Under the pieces are notes generated by a model. That model saw only the letters and a list, made by a program, of their open reading frames with translations. It was not told where the DNA came from and did no database searches. Shown here in pieces: positions 1 to 17,161 of a DNA stretch of 35,272 bases. How positions within the stretch are numbered: position 1 is the stretch's first letter; every line of letters begins with the position of its first letter. The stretch covers positions 1 through 35,272 of the forward strand of contig CAKKPE010000153.1 in NCBI GenBank assembly GCA_919901565.1, given 5' to 3'. The translations under genes were made by a program, and so were the position numbers. The DNA comes from a bacterium (lineage in GTDB: Bacteria > CG2-30-53-67).

Positions 1-95
1 AGAGTTCAAAGAGTTCAAAGAGTTCAAAGAGTTCAAAGAGTTCAAAGAGTTCAAACCGCTTGAACCTTTTAAACGGTTTGAACACTTTGAACGAT
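1..95. repeat. TTCAAA / TTGAAC short-period repeat array
   Basis: Positions 1-57 are a nearly perfect tandem array of the 9-mer GAGTTCAAA. It turns into inverted TTGAAC words up to 95, with AAACCG/CGGTTT symmetry. No ORF uses it. The same word recurs at 194-261, 22790-22837 and 25792-25837. It lies downstream of the tRNA cluster, where the spacer before a tuf gene would be expected. Confidence 0.85.
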
Positions 96-3194: not shown

Positions 3195-6119
3195 TCAAAA
3201 CAAACTCCCTTCCACCTTTTGCCGTGTCAGTTTTGAAAACTCCATGATCTCTTTGATGGACGCACCTTTGTCCCGCATAGTATAGAAAGTCGTCTCGCCC
3301 AGCAGGACATAGTGCCACTCGCATCCCATCCTGTCCTCGGGATTCAATTCATTTATTTTTTTCAGTCTGTATAGCGTCCCCAGTTCCTTCTGTCTGACGT
3401 TCGCGTCCTTAACGTCTTTCTGCGCCTTGGTCTCCACGAGGTAAAGGTCCGCCCCGATCTTGACAATAAAATCCGGATAATAAGGAGACAGCATACCGTC
3501 CGTGCGGATATAGTTGATATGGGCGAAAGAATGGTAATAATCGCTGATCTTGAGGAAACTGTTCACTTCCGGGTCTCCATCACAGTACAGAATAAAGTTC
3601 TTCTCCAGATCTCCTTTATTCGAGGGATACGGCAGCCGCTCGTAGATCGTCTTTGCGGCTTCGAGTGAAAAATTCTCCCGCATCTTAAGCTCATCGATTT
3701 CAGAAAAAAACTTCTTGATCACGACGGCGTCTTCGACCCGGATATTGTTCTGCATATCGTAGATGGTCTGGCTCACTTCTTTAATAATGTGCTGTGTGAT
3801 CCCGGCCTGTGATAGGAGCAGCACCCTCCAGTTGTTTTCCACGAACGGATCAAAGGGCTGGTTGAACAGTCGGTTCTTAATAAAATCGTCGATCACCTTG
3901 ACCAGCATCACGTTGTTGATCTGCATGAACGGATAGTTTTTGGCACCCCGTCGGCCGGATGTACCAAACGTACCGCTGATTACCTTGACGATTTTTGCAA
4001 GGAATTCATTATAGCTCTTTGCCGTAAAGAGGTCTCCCGCCACATGGTATTCTCCGAAGCGGGTCTTAACGGTCACTTCCTCGGAAATAAACGACTCCCC
4101 TTCTTTTGGCGCCATTTTTTTCAGTTGATCGAGACTGTACCAGTCAAACTCCGCAAAATACTCGGCAGAGGGATCCATCACATGAAGGATCTCTTCTTTG
4201 TCCTGGACAATAATCGGCCAGTACAGATCATAGTCTTTGTAGTTTTCCTTCAACCCCACTCTGATAATGTCACCGAGTATGCTTTCACGGTCCACAGGCA
4301 GATCGTGCGATTCGCCGACAATCCCTTCCTTCAAGAGGTCATCATAGAACTCGTTAAACGCAGGGTGCTCGATGATACTCAAGATGTCGAGATAATTGGA
4401 CGGCTCCTGCTTCTTTTGCAGCACCCTGATCCTGTTTTCGTCTTTAATGTCCTTATAATCCTGCTCCCGCCACATGAGCCGAAGCCCCCGGCCGATGATC
4501 TGCTCAAGAAGGATCGGTGCCTGGGATGAGCGAAGAGGAACGATCACGCAGATATTGCTCACATCAAACCCTTCACGAAGCATTAGCACGGACACGACAA
4601 CCTTCGGCTTTTCATGCCGGTCCATATTAAAGAGCCGCTGCTTTACATCTTGCCACTCTTTAGCAGGGATCGAGCCCTTCCGATCCGAATCGATTTGCAT
4701 CACATCGTCGGCACCCAGCCCCTCACTGTCCACAAGAAAGTCAACGACCTTGGGTGAAACGTTCGTATCCTCGCAGATGACCAGCATCTTGGGATGTTTG
4801 TCGCTCATGCCGGACTTATCTTTTGTCAGTTCCACAAACTGCTGATCCAGTATCTTCAGCTTCTGCAAACCCGCCCGAAGCATCAACTTCTGGCCGTCCG
4901 AAAGGCCGATTACCGTATTCCCGTCGCGCACTGCCTTGAAGTCCAGTTCCATGGCCGCGATCTCTTTGCGCTTGTCGAGCGCAATGGTCTTAACCAGGCC
5001 CTTGTGGATGGCGGTCTTGAGGTCGAAATCCACGATGATGTGCGGAAAATAATGCTTAGTCCGCTTCTGGCCGCTGCCGGTAACGTCATAGGGCGTCGCT
5101 GAGAAATCGATCTGAACAAAGCGGCTCCCCTTTCCCTCGGCTATCTTGTTCAGCGACTTCTGCCACTCCACTTCCGATACGATCCCGGCCTTCTTGGTCT
5201 CGTGGATGTGATGCGCCTCATCGTTGAACACGACAAGATTATCGAGTTCAGCCAAGTATTCGATCTCCCCGCCGCTCAGGTATTGATTGTCCAGCGACTC
5301 AAGAGCATGCCCTGCCGATGTCCCGGGCGTGACCGGCAAAAGTTCCTTCACCGCCCCGGAGGGGTCTTCCAGAGGCGATACAGCTGTCGCCTCTTCTTTC
5401 TCCTCCTCGCCCACCAGCGCATGCCAGTTTGTGATCGCTATCATTCCGTCGCCAGTCACCTTCTTACCGATCTCTTCTTTCTTCACTACATTGGTCTGGA
5501 TGAACCCGAAGAGTATTTCTTTATACGCACGCGGAATGAATAGCTCCTCGAACTTATTGAAGTCCGATGTCTCGAAGCTTCTTGTCCCTCCCGGCTCCTC
5601 CTTGCCCAGGTATGCGTCCAGCAGGCGCTCATACACGATCAGGCCCGGCGCAACGATCAGGAAGCGTTTTGAGAACCTGTTGCCCGGCTTCTCCTCGAAC
5701 TTCGCGTTCAGATACTGCCAGATCAAGAGCGCATTCAAGACCCAGGTCTTCCCCGTGCCGGTCGCCATTTTGAGGCAATACTTCGGATGGCTGAACTTGT
5801 CCTTTTTCAGGTACGTCAGGTCCATCTCCGCCGCAACCTCATCGCTGATTAATGAGTACATGTCGAACACGGAATCGGTTTTTAAAATTTCATGGAGATA
5901 GACGGTGTTCAGAATGGCCTGTTTTTGACCGAGATGGAAATTGACACTACGAGACTCGCAGAACGTGTCATTAAACCAGAACCTGAGAAGGTCTTGGGTT
6001 ACAGGACTTGTTTTTGAGAAAAAGCTGCCGTCCTCCCATGCCTTGTTTACCTGGGCGGTAAGCTCTTTAGCAAATTTGAGCGGTACGTCACGAGTGCCGG
6101 TATTTACGGAAACGGTCAC
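3195..6119 (-). CDS. res: Type III restriction endonuclease Res subunit
   Basis: This 974-residue superfamily 2 translocase-nuclease is the restriction subunit of a type III system. It works with Mod, hydrolyses ATP and cuts unmethylated DNA. Visible motifs are Walker A MATGTGKTW (about 118-126), DEAHH (300-304), FSATP, and the late helicase motif QIIGRGLR. A C-terminal PD-(D/E)xK nuclease is shown by PDFIVKIGADLYLVETK (PD near 882, E-T-K near 896-898). Length and domains look complete and no frameshift is visible. The start is GTG at 6119, with GGGAGA about 8 nt upstream. It is separated from mod by 603 bp containing a dispersed repeat and repeated AATTGACGG boxes, so it may have its own promoter. 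Confidence 0.93.
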   Translation of the reverse strand: MTVSVNTGTRDVPLKFAKELTAQVNKAWEDGSFFSKTSPVTQDLLRFWFNDTFCESRSVNFHLGQKQAILNTVYLHEILKTDSVFDMYSLISDEVAAEMDLTYLKKDKFSHPKYCLKMATGTGKTWVLNALLIWQYLNAKFEEKPGNRFSKRFLIVAPGLIVYERLLDAYLGKEEPGGTRSFETSDFNKFEELFIPRAYKEILFGFIQTNVVKKEEIGKKVTGDGMIAITNWHALVGEEEKEEATAVSPLEDPSGAVKELLPVTPGTSAGHALESLDNQYLSGGEIEYLAELDNLVVFNDEAHHIHETKKAGIVSEVEWQKSLNKIAEGKGSRFVQIDFSATPYDVTGSGQKRTKHYFPHIIVDFDLKTAIHKGLVKTIALDKRKEIAAMELDFKAVRDGNTVIGLSDGQKLMLRAGLQKLKILDQQFVELTKDKSGMSDKHPKMLVICEDTNVSPKVVDFLVDSEGLGADDVMQIDSDRKGSIPAKEWQDVKQRLFNMDRHEKPKVVVSVLMLREGFDVSNICVIVPLRSSQAPILLEQIIGRGLRLMWREQDYKDIKDENRIRVLQKKQEPSNYLDILSIIEHPAFNEFYDDLLKEGIVGESHDLPVDRESILGDIIRVGLKENYKDYDLYWPIIVQDKEEILHVMDPSAEYFAEFDWYSLDQLKKMAPKEGESFISEEVTVKTRFGEYHVAGDLFTAKSYNEFLAKIVKVISGTFGTSGRRGAKNYPFMQINNVMLVKVIDDFIKNRLFNQPFDPFVENNWRVLLLSQAGITQHIIKEVSQTIYDMQNNIRVEDAVVIKKFFSEIDELKMRENFSLEAAKTIYERLPYPSNKGDLEKNFILYCDGDPEVNSFLKISDYYHSFAHINYIRTDGMLSPYYPDFIVKIGADLYLVETKAQKDVKDANVRQKELGTLYRLKKINELNPEDRMGCEWHYVLLGETTFYTMRDKGASIKEIMEFSKLTRQKVEGSLF

Positions 6120-6192
6120 TATGTAAGTCTCCCTGACGTTAGCTTGAGCTATATAATCATCGGCAAAACATCAGCTTTTCAATTGGTTAGCA

Positions 6193-6242
6193 AATAATTG
6201 ACGGGACAATTGACGGAATCCGCCTTTAGGCCGTCAATTATT
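6193..6242. promoter_or_regulatory. Repeated AATTGACGG boxes upstream of res
   Basis: AATTGACGG occurs at 6196-6204 and 6208-6216 as a direct repeat with 12-bp period. Its reverse complement CCGTCAATT occurs at 6231-6239. AATAATTGACGG at 6193-6204 pairs perfectly with 6231-6242, so two alternative hairpins are possible. The site lies 75-125 bp before the res start, with a weak promoter (TTGAAA, then TGATTAT) between them. It could be an operator for res; this is inference. Confidence 0.45.
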
Positions 6243-6635
6243 CTTTATTAGTCGCCAGCGTGCACCCGCTCCATGACCATTCAGCACTCTCTGTTCTTTA
6301 GTCCACAGAACGAATAATCCCAATCTTTAGCAGCTATTTTAGCTCATTATTATCCATATAAATCAATTCGTTATATCTTGTAGTCGTCTAAAAAATCGTT
6401 TAAATCGTTTAAAAAAGTTCGTCTTCTTAGTCTCTTGCAAAAGTTGTGTGGGTGGTTAAACAAGCGCACCATGAACGGCAAAAATAATTTCTTTTAGGTT
6501 TTTCCAATTTTGAGCCTTATGAGGCTCATAATCGGCAAATTGAAAATATCAATATAACTACAATAAGTTAAGTGATACCAATAAGAGGCGATCACCACTT
6601 TGAGTCCGTGTTTTAATTACCGTTTCACTGAAGAT

Positions 6636-6706
6636 CGTCATTCCTGCGAAGGCAGGAATCCAGTCTTTTCAAAAGCCTCTGGATGCCGGATCAAGTCCGG
6701 CATGAC
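6636..6706. repeat. Dispersed two-hairpin repeat (CGTCATTCC...GGCATGAC type)
   Basis: Two perfect hairpins lie side by side: ATTCCTGC/GCAGGAAT (loop GAAG) and TGCCGGA/TCCGGCA (5-nt loop), bounded by GTCAT/ATGAC ends. From general knowledge this is a very common intergenic palindromic repeat in proteobacterial and related genomes. It starts 17 bp after the mod stop codon, in the gap between mod and res. Confidence 0.8.
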
Positions 6707-6722
6707 AGAAAAAATACAAACT

Positions 6723-8693
6723 CTATTTCACCTCCTCCACCACCACGCTCTCAAACCCGAACACGTCCACGGCCTTCACGCATATTTTCCGTTTGCCCTT
6801 GACCTTCGGCGCAAGAATCTTGATCTGCTTCACCACGCGGAATGGATCGGCGTCATTCTCCGTATTCTCACGGTAGTCCTGCCATTTGCTCCGAAACGTT
6901 GTGCCGTCATAGTCCGGGTCCACACTCCAGTATTCGATGAGCGCAAGCGGGTCATTGGCGATAATGTCCTGCAGCTTCTCCTTGTTTGCTTCATCGAGAG
7001 GCAGCGCGTCCGGAGAAAGCAGAACATAGTTGTCCAACTCTATCGTGATCTCCTCGATGTCGGCTGAATGGTTGTTGACGACCGGCTTCTTGATCGTAAT
7101 GTACTGAAGCGACGAGAATCGTATCTTGCCGCTCTTGAGCAGAGATTGATAGCTGGATTTAGACTTGAGCTTATCCAGGAGATCCGGCGGGATCACCAAC
7201 ACCTCCAGCTTGTCGTCGTTGAGATTCTTGATCACCGTCGCGATGTCAAAGGCAAAATTCCATCCCAGCACGATGACCTTGCCCCAGCCGCCGAGGAATG
7301 ACTCCCGCAGTTCCTGTGCGCGCTTCAGCGTCGCATAGCCCGTGAGCTTCGAAGGAGAATCAACCATCACCAGCGTCCGGCTGTTCTTGATGTAGCCGAG
7401 GTTGCGGTTCGGGTTCTGGTCATCCGGGAATGGCAAAGCGCCGTAAAGGTTCAGCACGACATTCGCCAAGTCTCCCACACGCCTGAACATTCGAGAGGAT
7501 GTGAAGGCTTCCTTCTGATAGTCGCCTATAGACTGATAGATGAAGGGCTTGCTCTCCATGTCGATGAGCCGCTTCCGGCTGATCATGATGGCGGGCTTAC
7601 CAATGTCCGACATGATCCAACGACGGCCAAGTTTTTCCGCAACAGCACCGGTAGTTCCGGAACCCATGAAAAAATCAGCCACAATAGAATCCTTATTGCT
7701 TGAAGCTTTTACCATTTTCTCTAAAACTGCTTCGGGTTTCTGTGTATTATAGTCAGTACGTTCATTTGCAACTTGATTGACAATATCGATCAGCCAATAA
7801 TCGTGTGGGGCAAAACCTTTTCCTATATAATTACGCACGACAAGCTCAGGGTGTGTCTTCTCCCATTCAGGATCAACGTCTTTTGCTGATTGTATCGGAC
7901 TTCCTGAAATTCCCCTACCACACAGACGATAGTAACCAATTTCATCCTTCAGCTTGAATTTCTTAATAGTAGCTTCCGCGTATGGTTGAAGAACACCCTC
8001 TGCTTCCCAGTTGAAGATATGCTGATCGGTATTTTTTGAATACAACAGGATATCATCATGCTTTCTATTCCAATATTTTTTTGAAAACTGACGGGTCTGA
8101 TAACACCATACAACATTATTTAAAAAGTTATCCTTCCCAAAAATGTCATCCAGCAATATTTTTACATAATGCCCTACATGCCAATCAAGATGCACATAGA
8201 GCGAACCTTGACTGCTCAATAGCTCCCGCATTAGCACGAGGCGCGGATAAATCATCTGCAAATAGCTGACAGTACCATCTTTCCATGTATCAGAATAGGC
8301 AAACTGCTCCAGCACGGTCGGCTTTTGCTCGATGGTAGTTCCGGGAAGAGTGATTTTCGTGCGGTAGTCGGCCTTGCTGTCAAACGGTGGATCGATGCAG
8401 ATGAGGTCGATCTTGCCACGCATGGAAGGGAGCCCAGTCTCCAGATCGCCAGCCAGCAGCGCCTGCATCACGAGCAGGTTGTCGCCATAGATCAGCCGGT
8501 TATGCCATTCCTTCTCGTTCAGCTCTTTAACCTCGCCTCTGAACAACCCCGACTTGTCCTTCGACGGCAATACATACTCGTTCGTCTGAAGCGTCAGCTT
8601 ATTCGGTCCCGACAGCCGCTCCAGTATCTTCTCAACTTCCTTCTTGCCCTCGGCAACAATCTTCGGCAGTTGTTCAATTAATGACTCAGCCAT
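6723..8693 (-). CDS. mod: Type III DNA-methyltransferase Mod subunit
   Basis: This 656-residue adenine-N6 methyltransferase of the beta class carries DPPF (motif IV, 101-104) before FMGSG (motif I, about 342-346), the order used by type III Mod proteins. It recognises the target sequence, protects the host DNA, and guides Res. The N-terminus is predicted coiled coil. The stretch between the motifs (about 195-300) should hold the target-recognition domain. The DNA there (roughly 7660-8300) is clearly more AT-rich than the ends of the gene, which suggests domain exchange. The start ATG at 8693 has AAAGGGG upstream. It lies 45 bp behind the ParA-like gene in the same direction. Length is normal for Mod. 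Confidence 0.93.
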
Positions 8694-8738
8694 GGTCTAT
8701 GTAGCCCCTTTATCTGACTCTTTTGCAGAATCGACCTG

Positions 8739-9731
8739 TTACAAGGCGATCCCGGTTTTACCAGCGATCTTCTTCGCCAACGTAAGGAAATCACCGTACG
8801 CTTCCTGCACGGCTAAGGCATGGCTCCCGATTGCGCCGTCAGCGGAAGTGAGCCGGAAAACCGGTTTTCTATGTTCCTGAGACAAAGGAATAAGGCTCCG
8901 ATAGTGTTTGATAGTTGCAAGACACAGGGGATCATCTTCAAGCTTCAGATTCTGCGCTGGTTCATTCAGCACGCTTTCGCGATAAACAGCCGGGATGCGG
9001 TTGACCCACTTGTCATACGCCTTGACCGGGCGATTCAAGCGGACGCTGTGCTGCTGACAAAGATATCCAGATGGCTGCATGTCCCCTTTGGGAAGAGAAA
9101 ATTCCGGCTTTGACCAATTGTCCAGGCGCTTCTTCCAGAGACTGCGCCAATTCCGAAGTGTGGGGCCGAGGTTCTTCAAACCTTGTAATGAGAACAGGTC
9201 CGCGCCGAGAGGTATGATAACGTAGTCCGTGGATATGAGCACAGACCGATTAATGGCCCCGAGATTTGGGCCGACATCAACCAGCAACATATCCGCTTCA
9301 ACTTTTTTTGCCGCCAATTGCATCACTTGCCAGAACGCGGTAAGAATACGGAAAGGCCGATAGAGGTTGTTGTCACCCATGCTGTCAGGCCATACGTTTG
9401 CGAGGTTTTCTTCAAAAGCGGACAAGGCGACATCACCAGGCAACAAATATAGATCGGTCGTAATCCTTTGTAACACAGGCTCCCGTAGATCGCCGACACC
9501 TGTCAGCGGCTGAATTGCCCTGTAGATCGTGTTTGCCTCGTTGTCGAGGTCCCATAAGGCTTCGAGTTTTCCCTCGTCCAGGAAGGCGGAAGTAAGGTTC
9601 GCCTGTGGGTCCAGATCAACAGCCACCACCCGCTTTCTTTGTTCGGAAAACATCCAGGCAAGGTGATAGACCAGCGAGGTTTTCCCGACGCCGCCTTTGT
9701 TGTTAAAGAAAGTAATCACCTTCGTATTCAT
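8739..9731 (-). CDS. ParA/MinD-like AAA ATPase
   Basis: This 330-residue P-loop ATPase has the deviant Walker A motif KGGVGKTS (12-19), AVDLDPQANLT (A'), and LLVDVGPNLGAINRS (Walker B region). ParA-type proteins partition DNA or position complexes. No ParB gene or parS-like repeat is visible, so a plasmid-partition role is unsupported here. The ATG at 9731 has GAGGAGA 6 nt before it, and its first bases overlap the TGA of the AlbA_2 gene (ATGA), so the two are translationally coupled. mod follows after 45 bp. The arrangement suggests a helper of the restriction-modification locus or a separate two-gene module; the substrate is unknown. Confidence 0.8.
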   Translation of the reverse strand: MNTKVITFFNNKGGVGKTSLVYHLAWMFSEQRKRVVAVDLDPQANLTSAFLDEGKLEALWDLDNEANTIYRAIQPLTGVGDLREPVLQRITTDLYLLPGDVALSAFEENLANVWPDSMGDNNLYRPFRILTAFWQVMQLAAKKVEADMLLVDVGPNLGAINRSVLISTDYVIIPLGADLFSLQGLKNLGPTLRNWRSLWKKRLDNWSKPEFSLPKGDMQPSGYLCQQHSVRLNRPVKAYDKWVNRIPAVYRESVLNEPAQNLKLEDDPLCLATIKHYRSLIPLSQEHRKPVFRLTSADGAIGSHALAVQEAYGDFLTLAKKIAGKTGIAL

Positions 9732-10945
9732 AGCGTTCTCCTCATCGTGCAAAGCACCGCAGTCGGCGTAACCGTAAACTCGGCCAGCGGATTGCCGTTA
9801 TCCCGCAATTCCTTCTGCGCTGTCGCAATACCCACACCGAAGCGCTGAACAAAGCCGTAGACCCTCATCGCGTCGGCGATATTAGGGTTTCGATAATCGG
9901 TAAAGCCCGGCTTGCCGAAATTCTGGGCCGTTACTTCGCCGAACGGTCCGCCCGGACTGATGACTTCTATGCGGTCGTTGAACCAGTATATCCTCACCGG
10001 AGAATTTGTTCCTTCATATGTCCTGTGCATCACGGCATTACGGACGATTTGCTGCAAGGCGGGCATGGGATAATCGACGTCACGCTTTTCAGTTTGCGCA
10101 GCGACCAAATCCACACTGACCCTGTTATGCGACTCCATTTTTTCGTCGATTCGCCGCAATAGCTGACCAATCGATCCATCGATGGCATCCTCATCAATCA
10201 CCGGGGCGGATAATTCAGTCCCATCCAGGCGTAAAAACTGTATGAATGCTCCAGGAATAAAATCCTGGGGCCGGTTGCCGAGTACCAGCAGCCCGAGAAC
10301 AGTCGGCACCGGTTCATCAAGTGACGCGATCATGCCGCAGGAAGCAAGTCTTTGTTCATACGACCGGTCATTCGCTTCAAGCACATCGCGTGCGAACGCA
10401 TTGGGCAGATACTCCTGCTCGAAAAGCATCTTATTCAGATCTTTCGCTGACGCGCTTGGTATTGGATGGATATCAAACGGTATATCCCTGAAGCGTCTTT
10501 TCTCATTGAGGATTCGCTCATCCTGTGCACTCGCGATAGCCCGTCTCGGTCCGGTTCTTATCCAAATTCTGCCTTTGTATCGCACTGGCGGCGTATCCGA
10601 CGGCTGTACGGTTACTACCGCTATGTCTTTATTCTTGAGTTTTCTTTTCTCGACCGTAAGCGTGGGCGGAGACAACGTATTGCCATCAGTCTTAATATCC
10701 GCCAATGTTCGGAGAAGCTCGTCGGTGACGGATAAGCCTGATGGAGAACCATCGTTCTTAGCGCCGATGAAGAGGACACCGGGCTTACGATGATCAGGCA
10801 GATCATTGGCAAAGGCGCATACTGCCTGCCGCCCTTTCTCCGGAGCATCGCCGTCCCAGCTTTCCTTGCGTTCCGCAAGATCGGATTCACTATCATCAAG
10901 AAGAGCTTCCAGTTCCGCATCATTATAGGTCATTTTTAAGGTCAT
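9728..10945 (-). CDS. AlbA_2 (schlafen-type) domain protein with GHKL ATPase-like C-terminus
   Basis: This 405-residue protein opens with an AlbA_2 putative nucleic-acid-binding domain (AERKESWD, then VLFIGAKNDGSPSGL near 60-75). It ends with an HATPase_c_4-like domain (QQIVRNAVMHRTYEG, IEVISPGGPFG, FGVGIATAQKEL). Such proteins are often annotated as transcriptional regulators or ATP-dependent helicase-like factors, but the biochemical role is unknown. The frame extends ten codons further, into duplicated TPR-gene DNA. The ATG at 10945 has AGGAGA at good spacing and is preferred. It is the first gene of an apparent AlbA_2-parA-mod-res string and overlaps parA by 4 bp. Confidence 0.8.
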   Translation of the reverse strand: MTLKMTYNDAELEALLDDSESDLAERKESWDGDAPEKGRQAVCAFANDLPDHRKPGVLFIGAKNDGSPSGLSVTDELLRTLADIKTDGNTLSPPTLTVEKRKLKNKDIAVVTVQPSDTPPVRYKGRIWIRTGPRRAIASAQDERILNEKRRFRDIPFDIHPIPSASAKDLNKMLFEQEYLPNAFARDVLEANDRSYEQRLASCGMIASLDEPVPTVLGLLVLGNRPQDFIPGAFIQFLRLDGTELSAPVIDEDAIDGSIGQLLRRIDEKMESHNRVSVDLVAAQTEKRDVDYPMPALQQIVRNAVMHRTYEGTNSPVRIYWFNDRIEVISPGGPFGEVTAQNFGKPGFTDYRNPNIADAMRVYGFVQRFGVGIATAQKELRDNGNPLAEFTVTPTAVLCTMRRTL

Positions 10946-10958
10946 GTATTCGTCTCCT

Positions 10959-11134
10959 GTAATCAACGCTCTCAATGTTGCCTTCGATCCGTTCTCCCTG
11001 ATCCAGCCTCTCGACGAGCGCCTTGTTCACGATCGCCACTTCGTAATCCGGATCGATCTCCAATGCCTTATTCAGACATTCCAGCGCCCTGGCCTTCTCC
11101 CCCAAACCCGCGTAAGCGAGCCCAAGGTTGCCAT
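10959..11134 (-). pseudogene. Internally deleted duplicate of the TPR gene
   Basis: About 175 bp here match the 3' part of the TPR gene at 16139-16312 at roughly 95% (NLGLAYAGLGEKARALECLN in both). The DNA then jumps at GTTGCC directly to the sequence around the start of that gene (17019 onward). About 712 bp, not a multiple of three, are missing, so the ATG at 11134 is out of frame with the TPR segment. The copy ends where the AlbA_2 gene begins. It is a remnant, probably not a functional protein. Confidence 0.8.
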
Positions 11135-11145
11135 AATGAATTCCC

Positions 11146-11292
11146 TCAATATGCTTCGTACGCCGTGCAGGCCAGGGAGAGCAGATCATCAAGCTGCTTC
11201 ACCGCAGCGGGATTTTCCAGAATGATGTAGTCCTTGGAACCGTCGGCTTTTTTCACATCGTTCTTCAACCAGTTCTTCTGTCCGGCAGGCAT
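11146..11292 (-). CDS. Small hypothetical protein (48 aa)
   Basis: An ATG at 11292 with TGAGGAAA six bases upstream opens a 48-codon frame: MPAGQKNWLKNDV... to ...LSLACTAYEAY. I do not recognise a family. The last residues LSLA-x-TAYEAY are shared with a frame ending at 17038, upstream of the intact TPR gene, because that DNA is part of the duplication. The stop codon overlaps the ribosome site of the TPR start, as in the other copy. It may be the 3' part of an older gene re-equipped with a new 5' end, or a genuine short partner of the TPR gene. Confidence 0.45.
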   Translation of the reverse strand: MPAGQKNWLKNDVKKADGSKDYIILENPAAVKQLDDLLSLACTAYEAY

Positions 11293-11417: not shown

Positions 11418-12515
11418 TTAAGAACTCATATGCCCCGCAAACATAGGTCTCACTTTACCCATAAGATTTCGCAGATGCGTATAGGGCAGCATTTCCTCGT
11501 GATGCAGCCGCCCAACCACGATCGATGGATGAATGCCGAGTTCCTTTGCGAAGGCAAGAACAGCGCTCCTCGAAAAGAACGGCTTGGTTCTTGTTACAAA
11601 AGCATTGAAGCGGTCCGGCGGAATCAAAAAATCCCGAGCCTTCTGATTAATTTTTCGCTCCATCTCATTTCCCGGATCATTAATAATATCCTGATCAAGA
11701 TAGCTTCCCGAAGTTCGTGCGCCTTCCATTACATGCACCAGCTCATGCATGAGTGTGAACCAGAAATTGTCGATCCGATCCATTCTGAGAGAGAGCGCAA
11801 CGACCGGAGAGCTTTTGTCCAACCAGAATGCCGCACCGTCTACACGAGTCTGGGGCAGGTGCGGCACAAAGACAAGGCGAATGCCAAGATTGCACAGGAT
11901 CTGCGGAATCTTGGCAACTGCCGGCTCGTCTACCGAAAGAGCGGGCAAATCCTGGACTGCCTTCCGTAATTTCTGCGCTTCATAGGCTGGGCACTTTATC
12001 TTTTTTGCATCTATCTCCGTCTTTCTCACCCATGCTAAAAGCGATGGAGTGTCTATAAGTCCCCCTTCGGACTTCCGGAAATTTACCGCAATCTTCGGCT
12101 GCTCCTCCAGACTGAAGATGCCAAAATAATTAAGCACTTCGGCTTCAAGCTTATCGATATTCTTTGATGGTTTGATCCAATGGCGCTTTGCCAACTCTTT
12201 GACCGGGGCGATGCTGTATAATTTCGCCCTGCGAACAACATGGTCTGAGTTATGCTGCTCATGATGAAGCATATCCAACCGGTATGCGGACTCAAGATTC
12301 AACCAGAACTCCGGCGTGGTCCCGATGGCTTTGGAAAACAGCAAAGCAGTCTCCGGGGTTATGGCCTTCTTGCCAGCAAGGATCTCATTGATCGCCTGCA
12401 AAGGCTTGCCCGTAATCTCAGCGAAATCCCCCTGGGTCCAGCAGCGAGCATCCAGTTCCTCTTTGAGGATCTCTCCAGGCCGTATCGGTTTGTATGGCTT
12501 ATTCATTTTCTCCAT
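11418..12515 (-). CDS. higA: HigA-like antitoxin fused to ImmA/IrrE-family metallopeptidase
   Basis: This 365-residue protein begins with an XRE-type helix-turn-helix of the HigA class (PGEILKEELDARCWTQGDFA... GKKAITPETALLFSKAIGT, about 13-68). It continues into a COG2856-like peptidase domain with HELVHVMEGA (HExxH zinc site, near 258-262) and a downstream ERKINQKARDFLIP helix. HigA antitoxins usually have about 100 residues, so the fusion is large. It likely represses its own operon and neutralises HigB. The peptidase part could control antitoxin or repressor turnover by analogy with ImmA/IrrE; this is inference. The start ATG lies 1 bp after the higB stop codon. No defect is seen. Confidence 0.88.
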   Translation of the reverse strand: MEKMNKPYKPIRPGEILKEELDARCWTQGDFAEITGKPLQAINEILAGKKAITPETALLFSKAIGTTPEFWLNLESAYRLDMLHHEQHNSDHVVRRAKLYSIAPVKELAKRHWIKPSKNIDKLEAEVLNYFGIFSLEEQPKIAVNFRKSEGGLIDTPSLLAWVRKTEIDAKKIKCPAYEAQKLRKAVQDLPALSVDEPAVAKIPQILCNLGIRLVFVPHLPQTRVDGAAFWLDKSSPVVALSLRMDRIDNFWFTLMHELVHVMEGARTSGSYLDQDIINDPGNEMERKINQKARDFLIPPDRFNAFVTRTKPFFSRSAVLAFAKELGIHPSIVVGRLHHEEMLPYTHLRNLMGKVRPMFAGHMSS

Positions 12516-12516
12516 C

Positions 12517-12816
12517 TTAATTCCCGTAGTGTTTGTTGATCTTAATGATCACTACGATCTTTCCGTCTTTGTCCTTTTCAATGGTGAGTATCAGTCTCCA
12601 TGCATTATTCAGCCGAATTGAATAACGGTCTTTCCCGCCCTTTAGCTTCTCGAAATGGAGGCTCTTTAAGGCCCTCAAGTCCCGCTCGTCCGCCGCCGCT
12701 TCGATCGTCCTCACCCGCCTGACAAACATCTCGGCTATGCCTTGGGGATAGCGTTCGCTGCCAGCACCATGCAGGTAAAGTTCTTCCAGCCGTTTGTCCG
12801 CGAAGCGGTATCTCAA
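12517..12816 (-). CDS. higB: HigB/RelE-family toxin
   Basis: This 99-residue RelE-superfamily protein of the HigB type contains HFEKLKGGKDRYSIRLNNAWRL, the core RelE-fold strand region, and ends KINKHYGN. HigB toxins cleave mRNA at the ribosome; the family role is known, activity here is inferred. The best start is TTG at 12816, because a strong GGAGG stands 7 nt upstream and no in-frame ATG precedes the conserved N-terminus (RYRFADKRLEELY). It precedes the antitoxin, the usual higBA order, and both are read from one strong promoter. Confidence 0.88.
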   Translation of the reverse strand: MRYRFADKRLEELYLHGAGSERYPQGIAEMFVRRVRTIEAAADERDLRALKSLHFEKLKGGKDRYSIRLNNAWRLILTIEKDKDGKIVVIIKINKHYGN

Positions 12817-13327: not shown

Positions 13328-13489
13328 TTATGCAGCCGCCTTCTTTCCCATCAGGATTTCGTTCACGGCCTGGAGGGGCTTCCCGATAATCTCCGCAAAA
13401 TCACCTTGGGTCCAGCCACGGGCATCGAGCTCATCCCTCAGGATTTCACCCGGCAAAACGGACCTGTGTGGCCTCTTTATGGTTTCCAT
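13328..13489 (-). pseudogene. Truncated HigA-like antitoxin (second higBA copy)
   Basis: The ATG at 13489 opens METIKRPHRSVLPGEILRDE, closely similar to the N-terminus of the intact HigA at 12515. Similarity continues through GWTQGDFAEIIGKPLQAVNE, then the frame ends after GKKAAA at a TAA. Only the first part of the HTH domain remains (53 residues). Confidence 0.8.
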
Positions 13490-13490
13490 C

Positions 13491-13580
13491 TTAGCCCCCA
13501 TAGCGATTGTTGATCTCGATGATCACCACGATCTTTCCGTCTTTGTCCTTTTCAAAGGTCAGAATCAAGCGCCAAGCCTT
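13491..13580 (-). pseudogene. 3' remnant of a HigB-like toxin (second higBA copy)
   Basis: Twenty-nine codons, from AWRLILTFEKDKDG to INNRYGG and TAA, match the C-terminus of the intact HigB (about 23 of 28 residues). A stop codon stands directly before the first matching codon, so the toxin's N-terminal two thirds are lost. The stop-start spacing to the HigA remnant is the same as in the intact pair. Confidence 0.8.
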
Positions 13581-13632: not shown

Positions 13633-14835
13633 TCAAAAATCCACTAAATAACCACCCAAGGGATCTGAGAGATCGAAATCGGCCATGGCGATATATTCCT
13701 TCACGAAATCGACAATGTCCTTTTTCCTGCTTGTATCGGAGCAGACATCCGTCATGTTTATGAGATACCCGTGCAGCCGGGTGCAGGCTTGCTTCAGATC
13801 CCATATTTCGTGCACGGCTTGCTGCTCCGGCAGATGCCAGAAGTCGTTGATAGGCATGAACCGCGGATTATAAAACACCGAAGCGTGTTCCACCTCAAGA
13901 GCGGCAACCTGTTCCTTGAGCGACGCAATGTAGAGTTTCAGCTTCTCGTCGGGTAAGGTGCCGAGATCATGGCTTTCCGATGCGACCCATTCCATTTCGA
14001 GTTTGAGAAGCGCGGCAATGTCCTTGCCGGCATAAGCCACTGTTACCTTCTTCATCAGCTCTTCTTTCCGCATTTTTTCCGCGCCGTCCATTTCGGTGTC
14101 CGGATGCAGGGCCTTGGCCAGCGAAAGATACAGGCTCCGCATGCTTTTGGTCTGCTGAATTTCTTTCCGTTTTCTGAGTTCCTCCTGCTCAATCTGCTTC
14201 TTCGACTTTTTCCTTCCGGAACAGCGTCTTTCCTGCTGTTTCCCGTTGTTCATAATTTCGCTCTGGATGCGGCTCGCAAAGCGCGCCATTTCCTCGGGCG
14301 TGCCGCCCATTTCTCCGAAATCAATGTCCAGGCCGAAAGCGCCCTTAACCTCTTCCGAAAACATCCGCTTCATGGCATCCTTCTGACTTTGAACTTCCTG
14401 TTGGTAATTCGATCTTGACCAGGCATTGTAAAACTGCTCGGTTTCAACGTCGGGCTCAATCTGGGAAAAGGCCTCGTCGCACAGAATCAGGATCACGTTG
14501 CGCACGTCAGCGGCCTGGCGCTTGCCGTATTTGATCCTTTTCGTGGTTTCACCCAGGGATTTCGCCAGCGACAGCCTGTTCGCTGCGATAGATCGCTGCA
14601 GTGCGGGTATATCCGCGTTGTACGCCTTGAGCACGGCTTCGAGCTTCGCAGAGTCCCGATGAATCGCGTTTTGAAGCTGTTCGATGCGTTTCGATAGTCG
14701 GTTAAAGGTCTGCTGATTTTTAGTCAGCTTCTTGTTTTGCACGGCGGCAATCTTCAGGTCTTTATTACGCGATCTTTCAGTTCCTAACTCACTATCATCA
14801 AACGGAGAACATGTTTTGTCGTAATGTTGGGGCAT
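13633..14835 (-). CDS. Coiled-coil protein with an internal J domain
   Basis: This 400-residue protein of no named family begins with about 100 residues of probable coiled coil (KDLKIAAVQNKKLTKNQQ...). A lysine/glutamate-rich stretch lies near 205-230. A J-domain-like segment follows, with SLYLSLAKALHPDTEMDGAE and the HPD motif at 244-246. J domains stimulate Hsp70 ATPases, so it may recruit DnaK to a client; client and role are unknown. The C-terminal 130 residues are unassigned. The ATG at 14835 has AAGGAG about 10 nt upstream. It follows the DUF4325 gene after 31 bp in the same direction, so the two look like an operon. Confidence 0.7.
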   Translation of the reverse strand: MPQHYDKTCSPFDDSELGTERSRNKDLKIAAVQNKKLTKNQQTFNRLSKRIEQLQNAIHRDSAKLEAVLKAYNADIPALQRSIAANRLSLAKSLGETTKRIKYGKRQAADVRNVILILCDEAFSQIEPDVETEQFYNAWSRSNYQQEVQSQKDAMKRMFSEEVKGAFGLDIDFGEMGGTPEEMARFASRIQSEIMNNGKQQERRCSGRKKSKKQIEQEELRKRKEIQQTKSMRSLYLSLAKALHPDTEMDGAEKMRKEELMKKVTVAYAGKDIAALLKLEMEWVASESHDLGTLPDEKLKLYIASLKEQVAALEVEHASVFYNPRFMPINDFWHLPEQQAVHEIWDLKQACTRLHGYLINMTDVCSDTSRKKDIVDFVKEYIAMADFDLSDPLGGYLVDF

Positions 14836-14866: not shown

Positions 14867-15904
14867 TCACTCCGCTGCGTTCGACAGCGCCCGTTGAATC
14901 ATCTGTTGAACATGCTTATTCGCCCGTAACGACATGAGATCTATGTGCGGGTGTTGCTTGACGAACACGCGGAACACTTCGTCGGCGAAGGCCTGGCCGA
15001 TGGTCTCGACATTATCGAAATCCAGGACCACCACTTTGAACCGGTCTACCCGCTCCATGAGGCGCTTTCCCTGCGAGCGTGATATAAGCTTTTCATTTCC
15101 GTACTGCGCCAGTTTGACGGGAACGACGGTCTTGGTGAAGCCGTACTCATCGCCGGTCGTGAACTCGTCTACCACCTTCTTCACGGTCCTTGCGGTATGG
15201 TTCTTCAGCTTCATGAACACGCCGGTTCCCGTCTGGAATTTTTGATTTTCCAGAATCCAGTCTTCATCCTCCGCATGGGTGTGCGAAAAAAACGCGTTGC
15301 CCGACAGGATGCGGAAATCATCGAACATCCTCGAGGAAAAGAATATCCCCTCCCCGGTGTGCCGCTCCGGATCAGTCGTCAGCTTGCCCTTGGATAGTTC
15401 CAGGACCGCATGACGTTCGTCCTCCAGGCCCAACGCATTCTGGATCTTCTTGAAAATGCCGACACCGTTATCAAACAGGACCAGTTCGGTGGACATCGCC
15501 GTTCTGGTCATGTTGATGCTGACCTGCTTCCCATCGGAATGATCGATCGCGTTATTCATCATCTCGGTAAAGCCATAGTGCCAGATGTCCCGAACATTGT
15601 CCGGCAGCTTGCCGAGCTTCGGCTCGATGTCATTTCGCCAGATGCTGTCCTCTGCGGACTTGTTCTCCAGGGTAATGATCGTTTCCCATTGGAGCAGCGG
15701 ATGCAGAAAGTAGTGGCGGTTTTTCGTGCTGCCTGACACGATCAGCGCCCCCTGTTCCACCAGACGCTGAATGTGTTTGTTGACAGCCTGCCTGGTTATG
15801 TCAAAGGTCTTGACCGCAAGGTTAGATACGTCACGCGGGTGGCTTTCCACGTTATCGAGAATAAACTGACGTATATCTTCGCCTCTTTTTCTAATGCCGA
15901 CCAT
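14867..15904 (-). CDS. HTH - GHKL ATPase - DUF4325 (STAS-like) protein
   Basis: This 345-residue protein has three parts. An N-terminal winged-helix (about 1-65: DITRQAVNKHIQRLVEQGAL) comes first. A GHKL ATPase domain follows, with N-box EMMNNAIDHSD, G1 LFDNGVGIF and G2 HTGEGIFFSS. A C-terminal STAS-like DUF4325 domain ends it (VVVLDFDNVETIGQAFADE). It resembles an anti-sigma kinase and its antagonist joined in one chain with a DNA-binding head; that reading is inference. The ATG at 15904 has AAAGG upstream. A strong promoter overlapped by AACCTTA boxes precedes it, consistent with autoregulation by the HTH. The J-domain gene follows after 31 bp. Confidence 0.8.
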   Translation of the reverse strand: MVGIRKRGEDIRQFILDNVESHPRDVSNLAVKTFDITRQAVNKHIQRLVEQGALIVSGSTKNRHYFLHPLLQWETIITLENKSAEDSIWRNDIEPKLGKLPDNVRDIWHYGFTEMMNNAIDHSDGKQVSINMTRTAMSTELVLFDNGVGIFKKIQNALGLEDERHAVLELSKGKLTTDPERHTGEGIFFSSRMFDDFRILSGNAFFSHTHAEDEDWILENQKFQTGTGVFMKLKNHTARTVKKVVDEFTTGDEYGFTKTVVPVKLAQYGNEKLISRSQGKRLMERVDRFKVVVLDFDNVETIGQAFADEVFRVFVKQHPHIDLMSLRANKHVQQMIQRALSNAAE

Positions 15905-15936: not shown

Positions 15937-15990
15937 AACCTTACCAAAAAAGATTGTAAACCTTATATATGTTATTGTCAACCTTATATG
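15937..15990 (-). promoter_or_regulatory. Strong promoter covered by AACCTTA operator repeats
   Basis: On the minus strand TTGACA (15976-15981) and TACAAT (15953-15958) are 17 bp apart. On the plus strand ATTGTAAACCTTATAT (15953) and ATTGTCAACCTTATAT (15974) are a direct repeat with one mismatch and a 21-bp period. A third AACCTTA stands at 15937, 22 bp before the first. The boxes therefore lie on one face of the helix and cover the -35, the -10 and the start region. They are probably bound by the HTH domain of the following gene. Confidence 0.75.
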
Positions 15991-16054: not shown

Positions 16055-17026
16055 TCATTCCCCCTCCGTCCCCTGCTGCATCCACCGGAGAGTATCGGCG
16101 ATATACGATTTCTTTTTCTTGGCCCGGTACTCCCGCGTGTAATCAATGCTCTCAATGTTGCCTTCGATCCGTTCTCCCTGGTCCAGCCTCTCGACGAGTG
16201 CCTTGTTCACGATCGCCACTTCGTAATCCGGGTCTATCTCCAATGCCTTGTTCAGACATTCCAGCGCCCTGGCCTTCTCTCCCAAGCCCGCGTAAGCGAG
16301 CCCAAGGTTGCCCCACGACTGCATGTGATTCGGCTCAACGGACAGAACCCTGTTGAACAACTCACTCGCGTCTGAATACTCGCCGGCCTCCAGCTTTTGA
16401 AGCGCCGTAACGAAGGTCTCTTCGTTTTTCAGGAAAGCATCCAGCGAAATGCCGCTATGTTTGCGAACGTGCCGCTCAAAATCATCGATCCGTTCCCTTG
16501 CCTCCGCCACCAATTCATCGTCGCCGCCTACTCTCACCACTTCCCTGAATGCGGCGATCATCCCGGAAAGGTCAAGCAGGGTCAAACAGACCATCCCGAG
16601 GTTGAAATACGCTTCGGTAAAATAGGGGAAAATCTCAACGGCACGCCTGAAGCAATCCGCCGCTTCCCCGAAGTTCTTCCGCTGGATACAGCAGACGCCC
16701 ATACCGTACTGGACCATGTGATAATCCGGACGGCGCTTGAATAGGGCCTGTATGCGAGCCTCGCCCTGAGCGAGGTTCCCGGATTCAATCAGCGACAAGG
16801 CATCATCGCACTCATCGTCAAGAACGGGATCGAGCAGGGCTATAAACTTTCTCTCCTGCCTTTGATCGGACCGATATTTATCCGCAGCGCGATGATGTGC
16901 GCATCCGCCACAGGCATCCGACCGCGTCTTTGCGCAGCAGACGGGGCAAAGATGATGCTCCTTTTCCGCATGGCATATCCGTTTTGCCTTGCTTACTCCG
17001 CAGATAGTACAGCGCGTTGTTGCCAT
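16055..17026 (-). CDS. Zinc-cluster and TPR repeat protein
   Basis: This 323-residue protein starts with a cysteine/histidine-rich segment (CTICGVSKAKRICH, HLCPVCC, CGGCAHH; about 5-47) that should bind zinc. Tetratricopeptide repeats follow in the middle and C-terminal parts, for example EAYFNLGMVCL near 145 and NLGLAYAGLGEKARALECLN near 245. TPRs mediate protein contacts; partner and role are unknown. The ATG at 17026 is preferred over an upstream TTG because GAGGGAA stands 8 nt before it. The upstream gene fragment overlaps this ribosome site. A partial, internally deleted duplicate lies at 10959-11134. This intact copy is next to the DUF4325 unit, 150 bp upstream of it on the same strand. 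Confidence 0.75.
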   Translation of the reverse strand: MATTRCTICGVSKAKRICHAEKEHHLCPVCCAKTRSDACGGCAHHRAADKYRSDQRQERKFIALLDPVLDDECDDALSLIESGNLAQGEARIQALFKRRPDYHMVQYGMGVCCIQRKNFGEAADCFRRAVEIFPYFTEAYFNLGMVCLTLLDLSGMIAAFREVVRVGGDDELVAEARERIDDFERHVRKHSGISLDAFLKNEETFVTALQKLEAGEYSDASELFNRVLSVEPNHMQSWGNLGLAYAGLGEKARALECLNKALEIDPDYEVAIVNKALVERLDQGERIEGNIESIDYTREYRAKKKKSYIADTLRWMQQGTEGE

Positions 17027-17037
17027 AATGAATTCCC

Positions 17038-17161
17038 TCAATACGCTTCGTATGCCGTGTAGGCCAGGGAAAGAACGGCTTCATACTCTATCTTTTTGCC
17101 ATCCTCCGTGATCCCAAGGGAAGTCTCCATGCGAGTAGTCGCTTATCTGGCTGGCATTCAT
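17038..17161 (-). pseudogene. Frameshifted remnant upstream of the TPR gene
   Basis: One frame from 17161 reads MNASQISDYSHGDFPW and then breaks. The +1-shifted frame from 17130 reads METSLGITEDGKKIEYEAV and ends LSLAYTAYEAY at 17038. Joined at the TGG-GATC region they look like one C-terminal domain hit by a single-base frameshift. A similar tail was seen by me in small antitoxin-like proteins, but I cannot name the family with certainty. It begins directly after the larB stop, marking the island edge. Confidence 0.4.

Follow-up and report, generated by a model that had tools for sequence, protein, structure and literature searches.

Phased direct-repeat boxes make up the promoter, and probably the operator, of a transferable wHTH-GHKL-DUF4325 gene

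CapK is a GHKL kinase that senses single-stranded DNA and phosphorylates the STAS-wHTH repressor CapS, which reportedly binds and represses its own promoter, binds TTAA palindromes and steers the adjacent operon (PMC13373217). CapK has the order HTH-STAS-GHKL and is reportedly succeeded in each of 443 cases by CapS, a separate STAS-wHTH protein, the pair being located ahead of many different immune operons (PMC13373217). This is the nearest studied design that we found for the gene described here, which lies at 14867-15904 on the minus strand of a window of 35,272 nucleotides (the whole stretch of DNA that was analysed) and encodes a protein of 345 residues, the presumed binder of the boxes in its promoter. 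HTH, GHKL and STAS parts are present in both systems, but the window protein lacks two features that define CapK (PMC13373217): its order is wHTH-GHKL-STAS-like within one chain, and no capS-like gene follows it in the window, nor does any widely common downstream family in 66 loci. It differs from CapK/CapS also in its direct repeats, in having no conserved operon and in lacking the usual STAS serine. The kinases SpoIIAB and RsbW share its GHKL fold, being its best structural matches, and its conserved ATP-site motifs; however, the STAS antagonist of these anti-sigma factor kinases is a separate protein, and they bind sigma factors, whereas the window domain is fused to a wHTH and to DUF4325. 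Autorepressors of the MarR/ArsR type are small wHTH proteins with an operator across their own -35/-10, usually one inverted repeat per dimer. The gene resembles these in its small wHTH and in the position of its boxes over its own -35/-10, but here the boxes form a series of direct repeats, mostly three and in one locus five, at steps of two helical turns.

The DUF4325 family name carries no function, and we found no described function for wHTH-GHKL-DUF4325 proteins; a phmmer search of the protein against the PDB gave a best E value of 0.11. Its domains were assigned from Pfam and from an AlphaFold2 model built from 58 sequences (mean pLDDT 82). The N-terminal winged helix, residues 1-70 (15695-15904, minus strand), is modelled over residues 2-67 with helices at 2-18, 26-34 and 38-50 and strands at 54-57 and 64-67, the recognition helix lying around ITRQAVNKH; R38 and Q39 are invariant across 26 aligned main-clade wHTHs, and one locus outside that alignment, L043, has M at position 38. 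Residues 71-237 (15194-15694, minus strand) form a GHKL ATPase domain with a SpoIIAB-like fold, which Pfam detects barely above its cut-off (PF13581, HATPase_c_2; 27.7 bits against 27.4). Structural comparison with VIA-align matches this domain to SpoIIAB (1til_E; Z 15.4, 133 aligned, rmsd 2.2), RsbW (Z 12.5) and UsfX (Z 12.2). Anti-sigma kinases occupy ranks 1-7 and 9-10 (Z 12.0-15.4), the response regulator LvrC takes rank 8 (12.3), and the remaining GHKL proteins among the matches listed reach a Z of at most 9.9. The C-terminal domain, STAS-like in the model over residues 258-344 (14873-15133, minus strand) and matched by Pfam over 278-320, is a clear member of DUF4325 (PF14213; 55.2 bits against a cut-off of 23, E 6e-15) and the one DUF4325 match in its own genome. 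By our own reading, it carries IGQAF at the position where STAS antagonists usually have the phosphorylated serine, and that serine is absent; the GHKL domain may have a partner STAS serine in trans.

The original prediction held that AACCTTA boxes cover the promoter of this gene, with a 16-bp word repeated at a period of 21 bp with one mismatch and a third core 22 bp away. The sequence agrees with this to the base. On the gene's strand the 16-mers are ATATAAGGTTGACAAT (15989-15974) and ATATAAGGTTTACAAT (15968-15953), with one mismatch between them; the AACCTTA cores start on the plus strand at 15937, 15959 and 15980, which gives steps of 22 and 21 bp, and the third core reads GTAAGGTTGCC on the minus strand. 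The proposed spacing of two helical turns is more exactly a step of 21 bp followed by one of 22 bp. Read as 13-bp boxes on the minus strand, the copies of TAAGGTTGACAAT begin at 15986, 15965 and 15943, with steps of 21 and 22 bp. Box 1, TAAGGTTGACAAT (15986-15974), matches the consensus at 13 of 13 positions and holds the -35; box 2, TAAGGTTTACAAT (15965-15953), matches at 12 of 13, ends in the -10 and is the most informative box of the family; box 3, TAAGGTTGCCTAC (15943-15931), is degenerate (10 of 13), lies 22 bp past box 2 and spans the predicted start point. The triple scores 35/39. A promoter scan placed the -35 hexamer TTGACA at 15981-15976, within box 1, and the -10 hexamer TACAAT at 15958-15953, within box 2, both on the minus strand, and the boxes thus lie over the -35, the -10 and the start point, as had been claimed. 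The two hexamers and their 17-bp spacer match the promoter consensus at 11 of 12 positions; the scan returned 2 sites in 2.8 kb against 1.8 in shuffles, and the other site scores 9. The boxes therefore make up the promoter of the gene, beyond merely covering it: because the 21-bp step puts TTGACA and the end of the next box 17 bp apart, the array would be promoter and operator together.

Within the 2.96-Mb genome, the 16-mer has no second site within one mismatch. At up to two mismatches the 13-mer has 58 sites there, with no second close pair among them, against 31 for a reversed-pattern control, an excess of single sites that is perhaps due to the promoter-like TTGACA. A possible fourth half-box, AAAGGTTAATATG, lies at 15914-15902, and no counterpart to it was seen in the homologous locus L015. 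A literature search for the box core gave, among the matches listed, papers that were unrelated by title.

Homologs were sought in about 85,000 species genomes, and 75 loci were found. Upstream DNA was readable at 65 of these and in the window, 10 loci being left out, and the resulting 66 loci consist of 13 of a Lachnospiraceae type and 53 of a main clade (52 homologs and the window). Searching for phased boxes upstream of homologous genes had been proposed as a check, and three-box arrays, called at a triple score of at least 27/39, are found at 45 of the 53 main-clade loci as against 2 of 4261 control windows. The spacings are 21/22 in 27 of the 45 arrays, 21/21 in eight, 22/22 in four, 22/21 in four and 20/22 in two. 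Eight loci do not reach this threshold (L030, L048, L052, L057, L061, L063, L064 and L087), some of them keeping one or two boxes, and no single box reaching 10/13 was found in L043, L052 or L063. The upstream regions are mostly dissimilar otherwise, yet boxes of the AAGGTTGACAAT type recur in them; 51 of the 66 loci have one or more boxes scoring 10/13 or higher within 200 bp upstream, and such boxes occur elsewhere in the loci at 167 per 1.2 Mb of strand. Independently of any motif, the self-similarity of the upstream regions over lags of 14-59 peaks at 21, 22 and 43, and more weakly at 42 and 31. Array positions are near-constant relative to the gene, and one locus from Acidobacteria (L041) has five boxes at steps of 21, 22, 21 and 22 bp. 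By their record titles the carriers span about nine phyla, although most are metagenome bins and single cases may therefore be misbinned; the titles of array carriers name Nitrospirota, Gamma- and Betaproteobacteria, Planctomycetota, Cyanobacteria, Deltaproteobacteria, FCPU426, Acidobacteria, Binatia and Anaerolineae. From these sequence comparisons, we propose that the boxes are very probably the operator of an autoregulated, self-contained and transferable gene, whose product is a presumed autorepressor.

The protein could instead be a local controller of an adjacent operon in the manner of CapK and CapS, with the boxes as a shared control region, which we consider unlikely. Its domains are similar to those of CapK/CapS (PMC13373217), and the next gene in the window (13633-14835, 400 aa, no Pfam family at E 0.001) lies 31 bp downstream. 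The arrangement at other loci argues against such a role: a downstream gene was called in 41 of the 46 full-gene main-clade loci, and 22 of these genes are convergent and 19 co-directional, six of the 41 being co-directional within 100 bp. Even the most widespread neighbour family is found at no more than 6 of the 66 loci (crude ORF calls). The 110 neighbour proteins scanned, out of 168, fall into scattered housekeeping families together with some restriction-modification and other defence models, and the leading families each match at most three of the 110 among the matches listed (the best 25 of 175 and the best 25 of 172 families), in a scan that used crude ORF calls without a control set. 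The clearest conserved neighbourhood is that of three Competibacteraceae-type loci (L029, L035, L039), which have upstream and downstream gene families in common. A general role as operon leader or as part of a defence island is disfavoured by the orientations (19 against 22) and by the mixed neighbours.

Several further features were observed around the gene in the window. The DUF4325 gene and a HigBA pair lie in a block (11.2-16.1 kb) flanked by direct repeats of a TPR gene (10958-11181 and 16138-17073; 175 nt at 95% and 55 nt at 93%), an arrangement that suggests either an insertion or a duplication with internal deletion. Positions 12364-12606 and 13338-13580 form a 74% identical repeat around the HigB-HigA pair, perhaps the remnant of a second copy, and an antitoxin-like protein at 11418-12515 matches the PADLOC model PD-Lambda-2_B (E 6.8e-50). 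At 3195-10975 a defence-like island adjoins this region; it groups type III restriction-modification genes with a ParA-like ATPase and with an AlbA_2/HATPase_c_4 protein that matches pAgo-associated PADLOC models (E 2e-17).

With regard to mobility, a homolog in a Woeseiaceae record (L033, about 4790-6150) is bounded by near-identical attC-like sites, 85 bp before its start codon and 7 bp after its stop, and resembles an integron cassette that brings a promoter of its own; since these sites flank just the boxes and the gene, the mobile piece there would be the boxes plus the gene alone. Cassettes are the exception, and a general integron-cassette origin was rejected, because a looser attC motif found candidates on both sides in that one of 57 complete loci only (upstream in 4 of 57, downstream in 1 of 57, with a background of 7 in 1224). 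A strict attC search, with a finder that proved too strict, gave 0 hits in the 66 loci and one in reversed sequence.

It is quite unlikely that the boxes are merely a strong constitutive promoter, a tandem of TTGACA elements that travels with the gene and has no specific regulator. It is true that a TTGACA-like core is present in every box and that a step of 21 bp leaves the ideal 17 bp as spacer. However, sigma-70 needs neither the bases before TTGACA nor box 3, and across the family the G preceding TTGACA is kept at about 80%, the A's before it at 60-84%, and box 3 in its entirety. In addition, the -10 formed in most homologs is the weak GACAAT, and the sequence of the boxes tracks the wHTH. 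The information content is about 15 bits for box 1, 18.5 for box 2 and 16 for box 3, and at most 0.2 bits for most columns outside the boxes; these values are raised, because they come from 45 loci picked and aligned for high score. The box consensus was itself derived from the same upstream regions. Box 3 lies past the -10 and yet is conserved to about the degree of boxes 1 and 2, so that a promoter alone is an insufficient explanation.

A different host protein, whether another regulator or an alternative sigma factor, might also be the reader of the boxes, the gene's own product being their presumed reader; in our view this is very unlikely. Arrays occur in about nine phyla (by record titles) without a widely conserved neighbour gene, and in the carrying genomes searched the one strict pair away from the gene stands before a fossil of it; the gene's own protein is therefore the only one that is surely present. 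The strict pair, GGTTGACA-12..14-GGTTGACA, was searched for in 31 carrying genomes (about 110 Mb) and gave 21 hits in 15 genomes, 20 of them (in 14 genomes) directly upstream of this gene and the remaining one (G065:C16:112774) before a decayed copy, with 0 hits in the 31 genomes away from the gene or its fossil. The pattern detects the gene's own array in just 14 of the 31 genomes and is too strict for it in the other 17, so that the test is specific rather than sensitive and weaker sites elsewhere would escape it; within that reach, no wider regulon was found. A stricter pair, searched in 398 genomes of the phylum of one homolog (L017, whose own genome is included), gave one hit, before the L017 gene itself. 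The fossil, a decayed second copy in Candidatus Spongiihabitans thiooxidans (L091, 4270-4455), retains an intact box pair, and the gene survives as two recognisable fragments: it is 77% identical to the gene over 90 nt spanning the boxes and the gene start (E 5e-12), its N-box is 72% identical over 75 nt (E 5e-6), and the intervening stretch has been lost and an in-frame stop is present.

The boxes also vary together with the wHTH. Among 39 related loci, and in a test that is less than fully phylogenetic, the partial Mantel correlation of box sequence with the wHTH, given the C-terminal part, is 0.25, a value reached by 3 of 2000 permutations, against 0.08 for the box with the C-terminal part given the wHTH; inter-box and flanking DNA correlates with the wHTH at 0.12 (without permutation). 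Single box positions are associated with wHTH residues 26, 47 and 62 (p 0.0015-0.0026, uncorrected for column number or phylogeny), which is only a hint. The Lachnospiraceae-type clade has a recognition helix of the ISLNTVYRY type in place of the usual I[ST]RQAVNKH, and its own set of boxes, namely an inverted TTAACTTTACA at the -35, a TATAGTTAAA-like box at the -10 and a third copy 21 bp further. By our own reading this set is present in 8 of the 13 loci of that type and in three virus contigs (L093, L097 and L098), of which L098 has the same DNA as L079. Another locus, L071, has its own AAGGTGACT box type at steps of 21 and 21 bp. Differing reading heads thus pair with differing boxes at the same two-turn step, and these comparisons support the suggestion that the operator co-evolves with the wHTH of its gene.

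Iterons typically take the form of direct repeats of 21-22 bp to which winged helices bind, and the boxes of this mobile gene resemble them, but that the boxes are iterons or a mobile-element recombination site rather than an operator is hardly credible, given that they are fused to a sigma-70-like promoter at a near-constant distance from the gene, that no recurrent neighbour such as a replication gene accompanies them and that 72,556 plasmid records gave no match to the protein.

We return to the boxes as the operator of an autorepressor. The original prediction took the two-turn spacing to suggest cooperative binding by the winged helix of the gene's own product, and the comparisons support this reading. 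The wHTH would bind at every box, approaching from one face of the helix, probably with cooperativity between boxes; the bound protein would cover the -35, the -10 and the start point and so repress the gene. Repression rather than activation is read from the position of the boxes, repressor sites classically overlying these three elements. As the boxes are direct repeats, neighbouring proteins must stack head to tail. A plausible glue would be a grip of the GHKL domain on the STAS-like domain of the neighbouring chain, and such pairing in trans would build an open-ended row of chains, which the five boxes of L041 would suit. The row would come apart, and the gene would be switched on, once a nucleotide or ligand is bound; by analogy with CapK/CapS, the input is possibly stress or DNA damage.

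Phased boxes are also found in virus contigs. We scanned IMG/VR for GGTTGACAA pairs at 20-22 bp, taking as high-scoring those with a full-box score of at least 23/26. The scan returned 90 stretches. As controls, spacings of 25-27 bp and of 15-17 bp gave 23 and 14 stretches, and a CC version of the pair, again at 20-22 bp, gave 19. Of the 90, 30 reach 23/26, each with a step of 21 or 22 bp; in the three control sets 4 of 23, 1 of 14 and 2 of 19 do so. Counted by lineages that share no flanking DNA, the figures are 24 of 58 against 1 of 12, 1 of 10 and 1 of 15 (controls together 3 of 37). Part of these 24 lineages may be incidental, since 13 of the 30 high-scoring pairs lie inside an open frame of at least 100 codons on either strand and six (L126, L130, L134, L149, L158, L170) have spacers alike at six or more positions, as a duplication would give; the rest of the 30 show neither sign or just one. 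In L117 and L126, phage ORFs with heptad-like coding repeats (DKVDN..SDKVDK, our own reading) mimic the 21-bp step and are false positives. Phased pairs or triples of TAAGGTTGACAAT occur in L101, L108, L119, L120, L130, L134, L136, L140, L179, L180, L188 and others.

Chosen proteins beside the arrays were scanned at 14 loci, and in seven of these a late gene heads the stretch behind the array. A terminase follows after a small frame in L108 (L101 and L140 being alike) and after one small gene in L188; the major head protein follows in L130, with L134; a head scaffold, between portal and head, follows in L136; and the array leads to a baseplate gene in L119, a head-tail adaptor in L120 and an endolysin in L145. 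Late genes lie further down in L138 (a head protease after a ParB-like gene) and L170 (a baseplate hub), L180 has nuclease- and replication-type genes in opposite orientation, L175 has a phosphatase, and no family was found for the scanned proteins beside the arrays of L152, L169 and L179. No such wHTH was found in any of the 21 array-bearing virus records searched (of 30; 4 to 108 kb, many of them fragments), with the positive controls found in 4 of 4 cases; an earlier protein search of 22 array-bearing virus records, run without a positive control, was likewise empty. Phage records gave no match to the window protein, and seven virus contigs encode relatives of it, mostly of the Lachnospiraceae type. 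The relatives of the phage proteins, all less than 60% identical, belong to phages of Vibrio, Alteromonas, Methylophilales, Leptolyngbya and many others, whose hosts overlap the carriers of the gene only loosely.

These arrays allow a tentative and rather doubtful extension, in which the protein would act in trans on the late promoters of incoming phages that carry phased TAAGGTTGACAAT arrays. It might silence them, as a free-standing, horizontally moving 'immunity repressor' serving as a defence, or the phages might exploit it as a host-borne sensor that keeps their late genes off. In that case the recognition system would be directed at phages, and the operator of the host gene would be its autoregulatory copy.

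The results of the current study give a defined candidate DNA target to a widely transferred wHTH-GHKL-DUF4325 family, in which the operator in cis moves between phyla together with its gene. The combination of direct repeats with a chain that holds kinase-like and STAS-like halves suggests a head-to-tail switch, a design of which we found no example in the literature searched. If the phage arrays are real targets, they would represent a new way for a single mobile host gene to meet phage late transcription.
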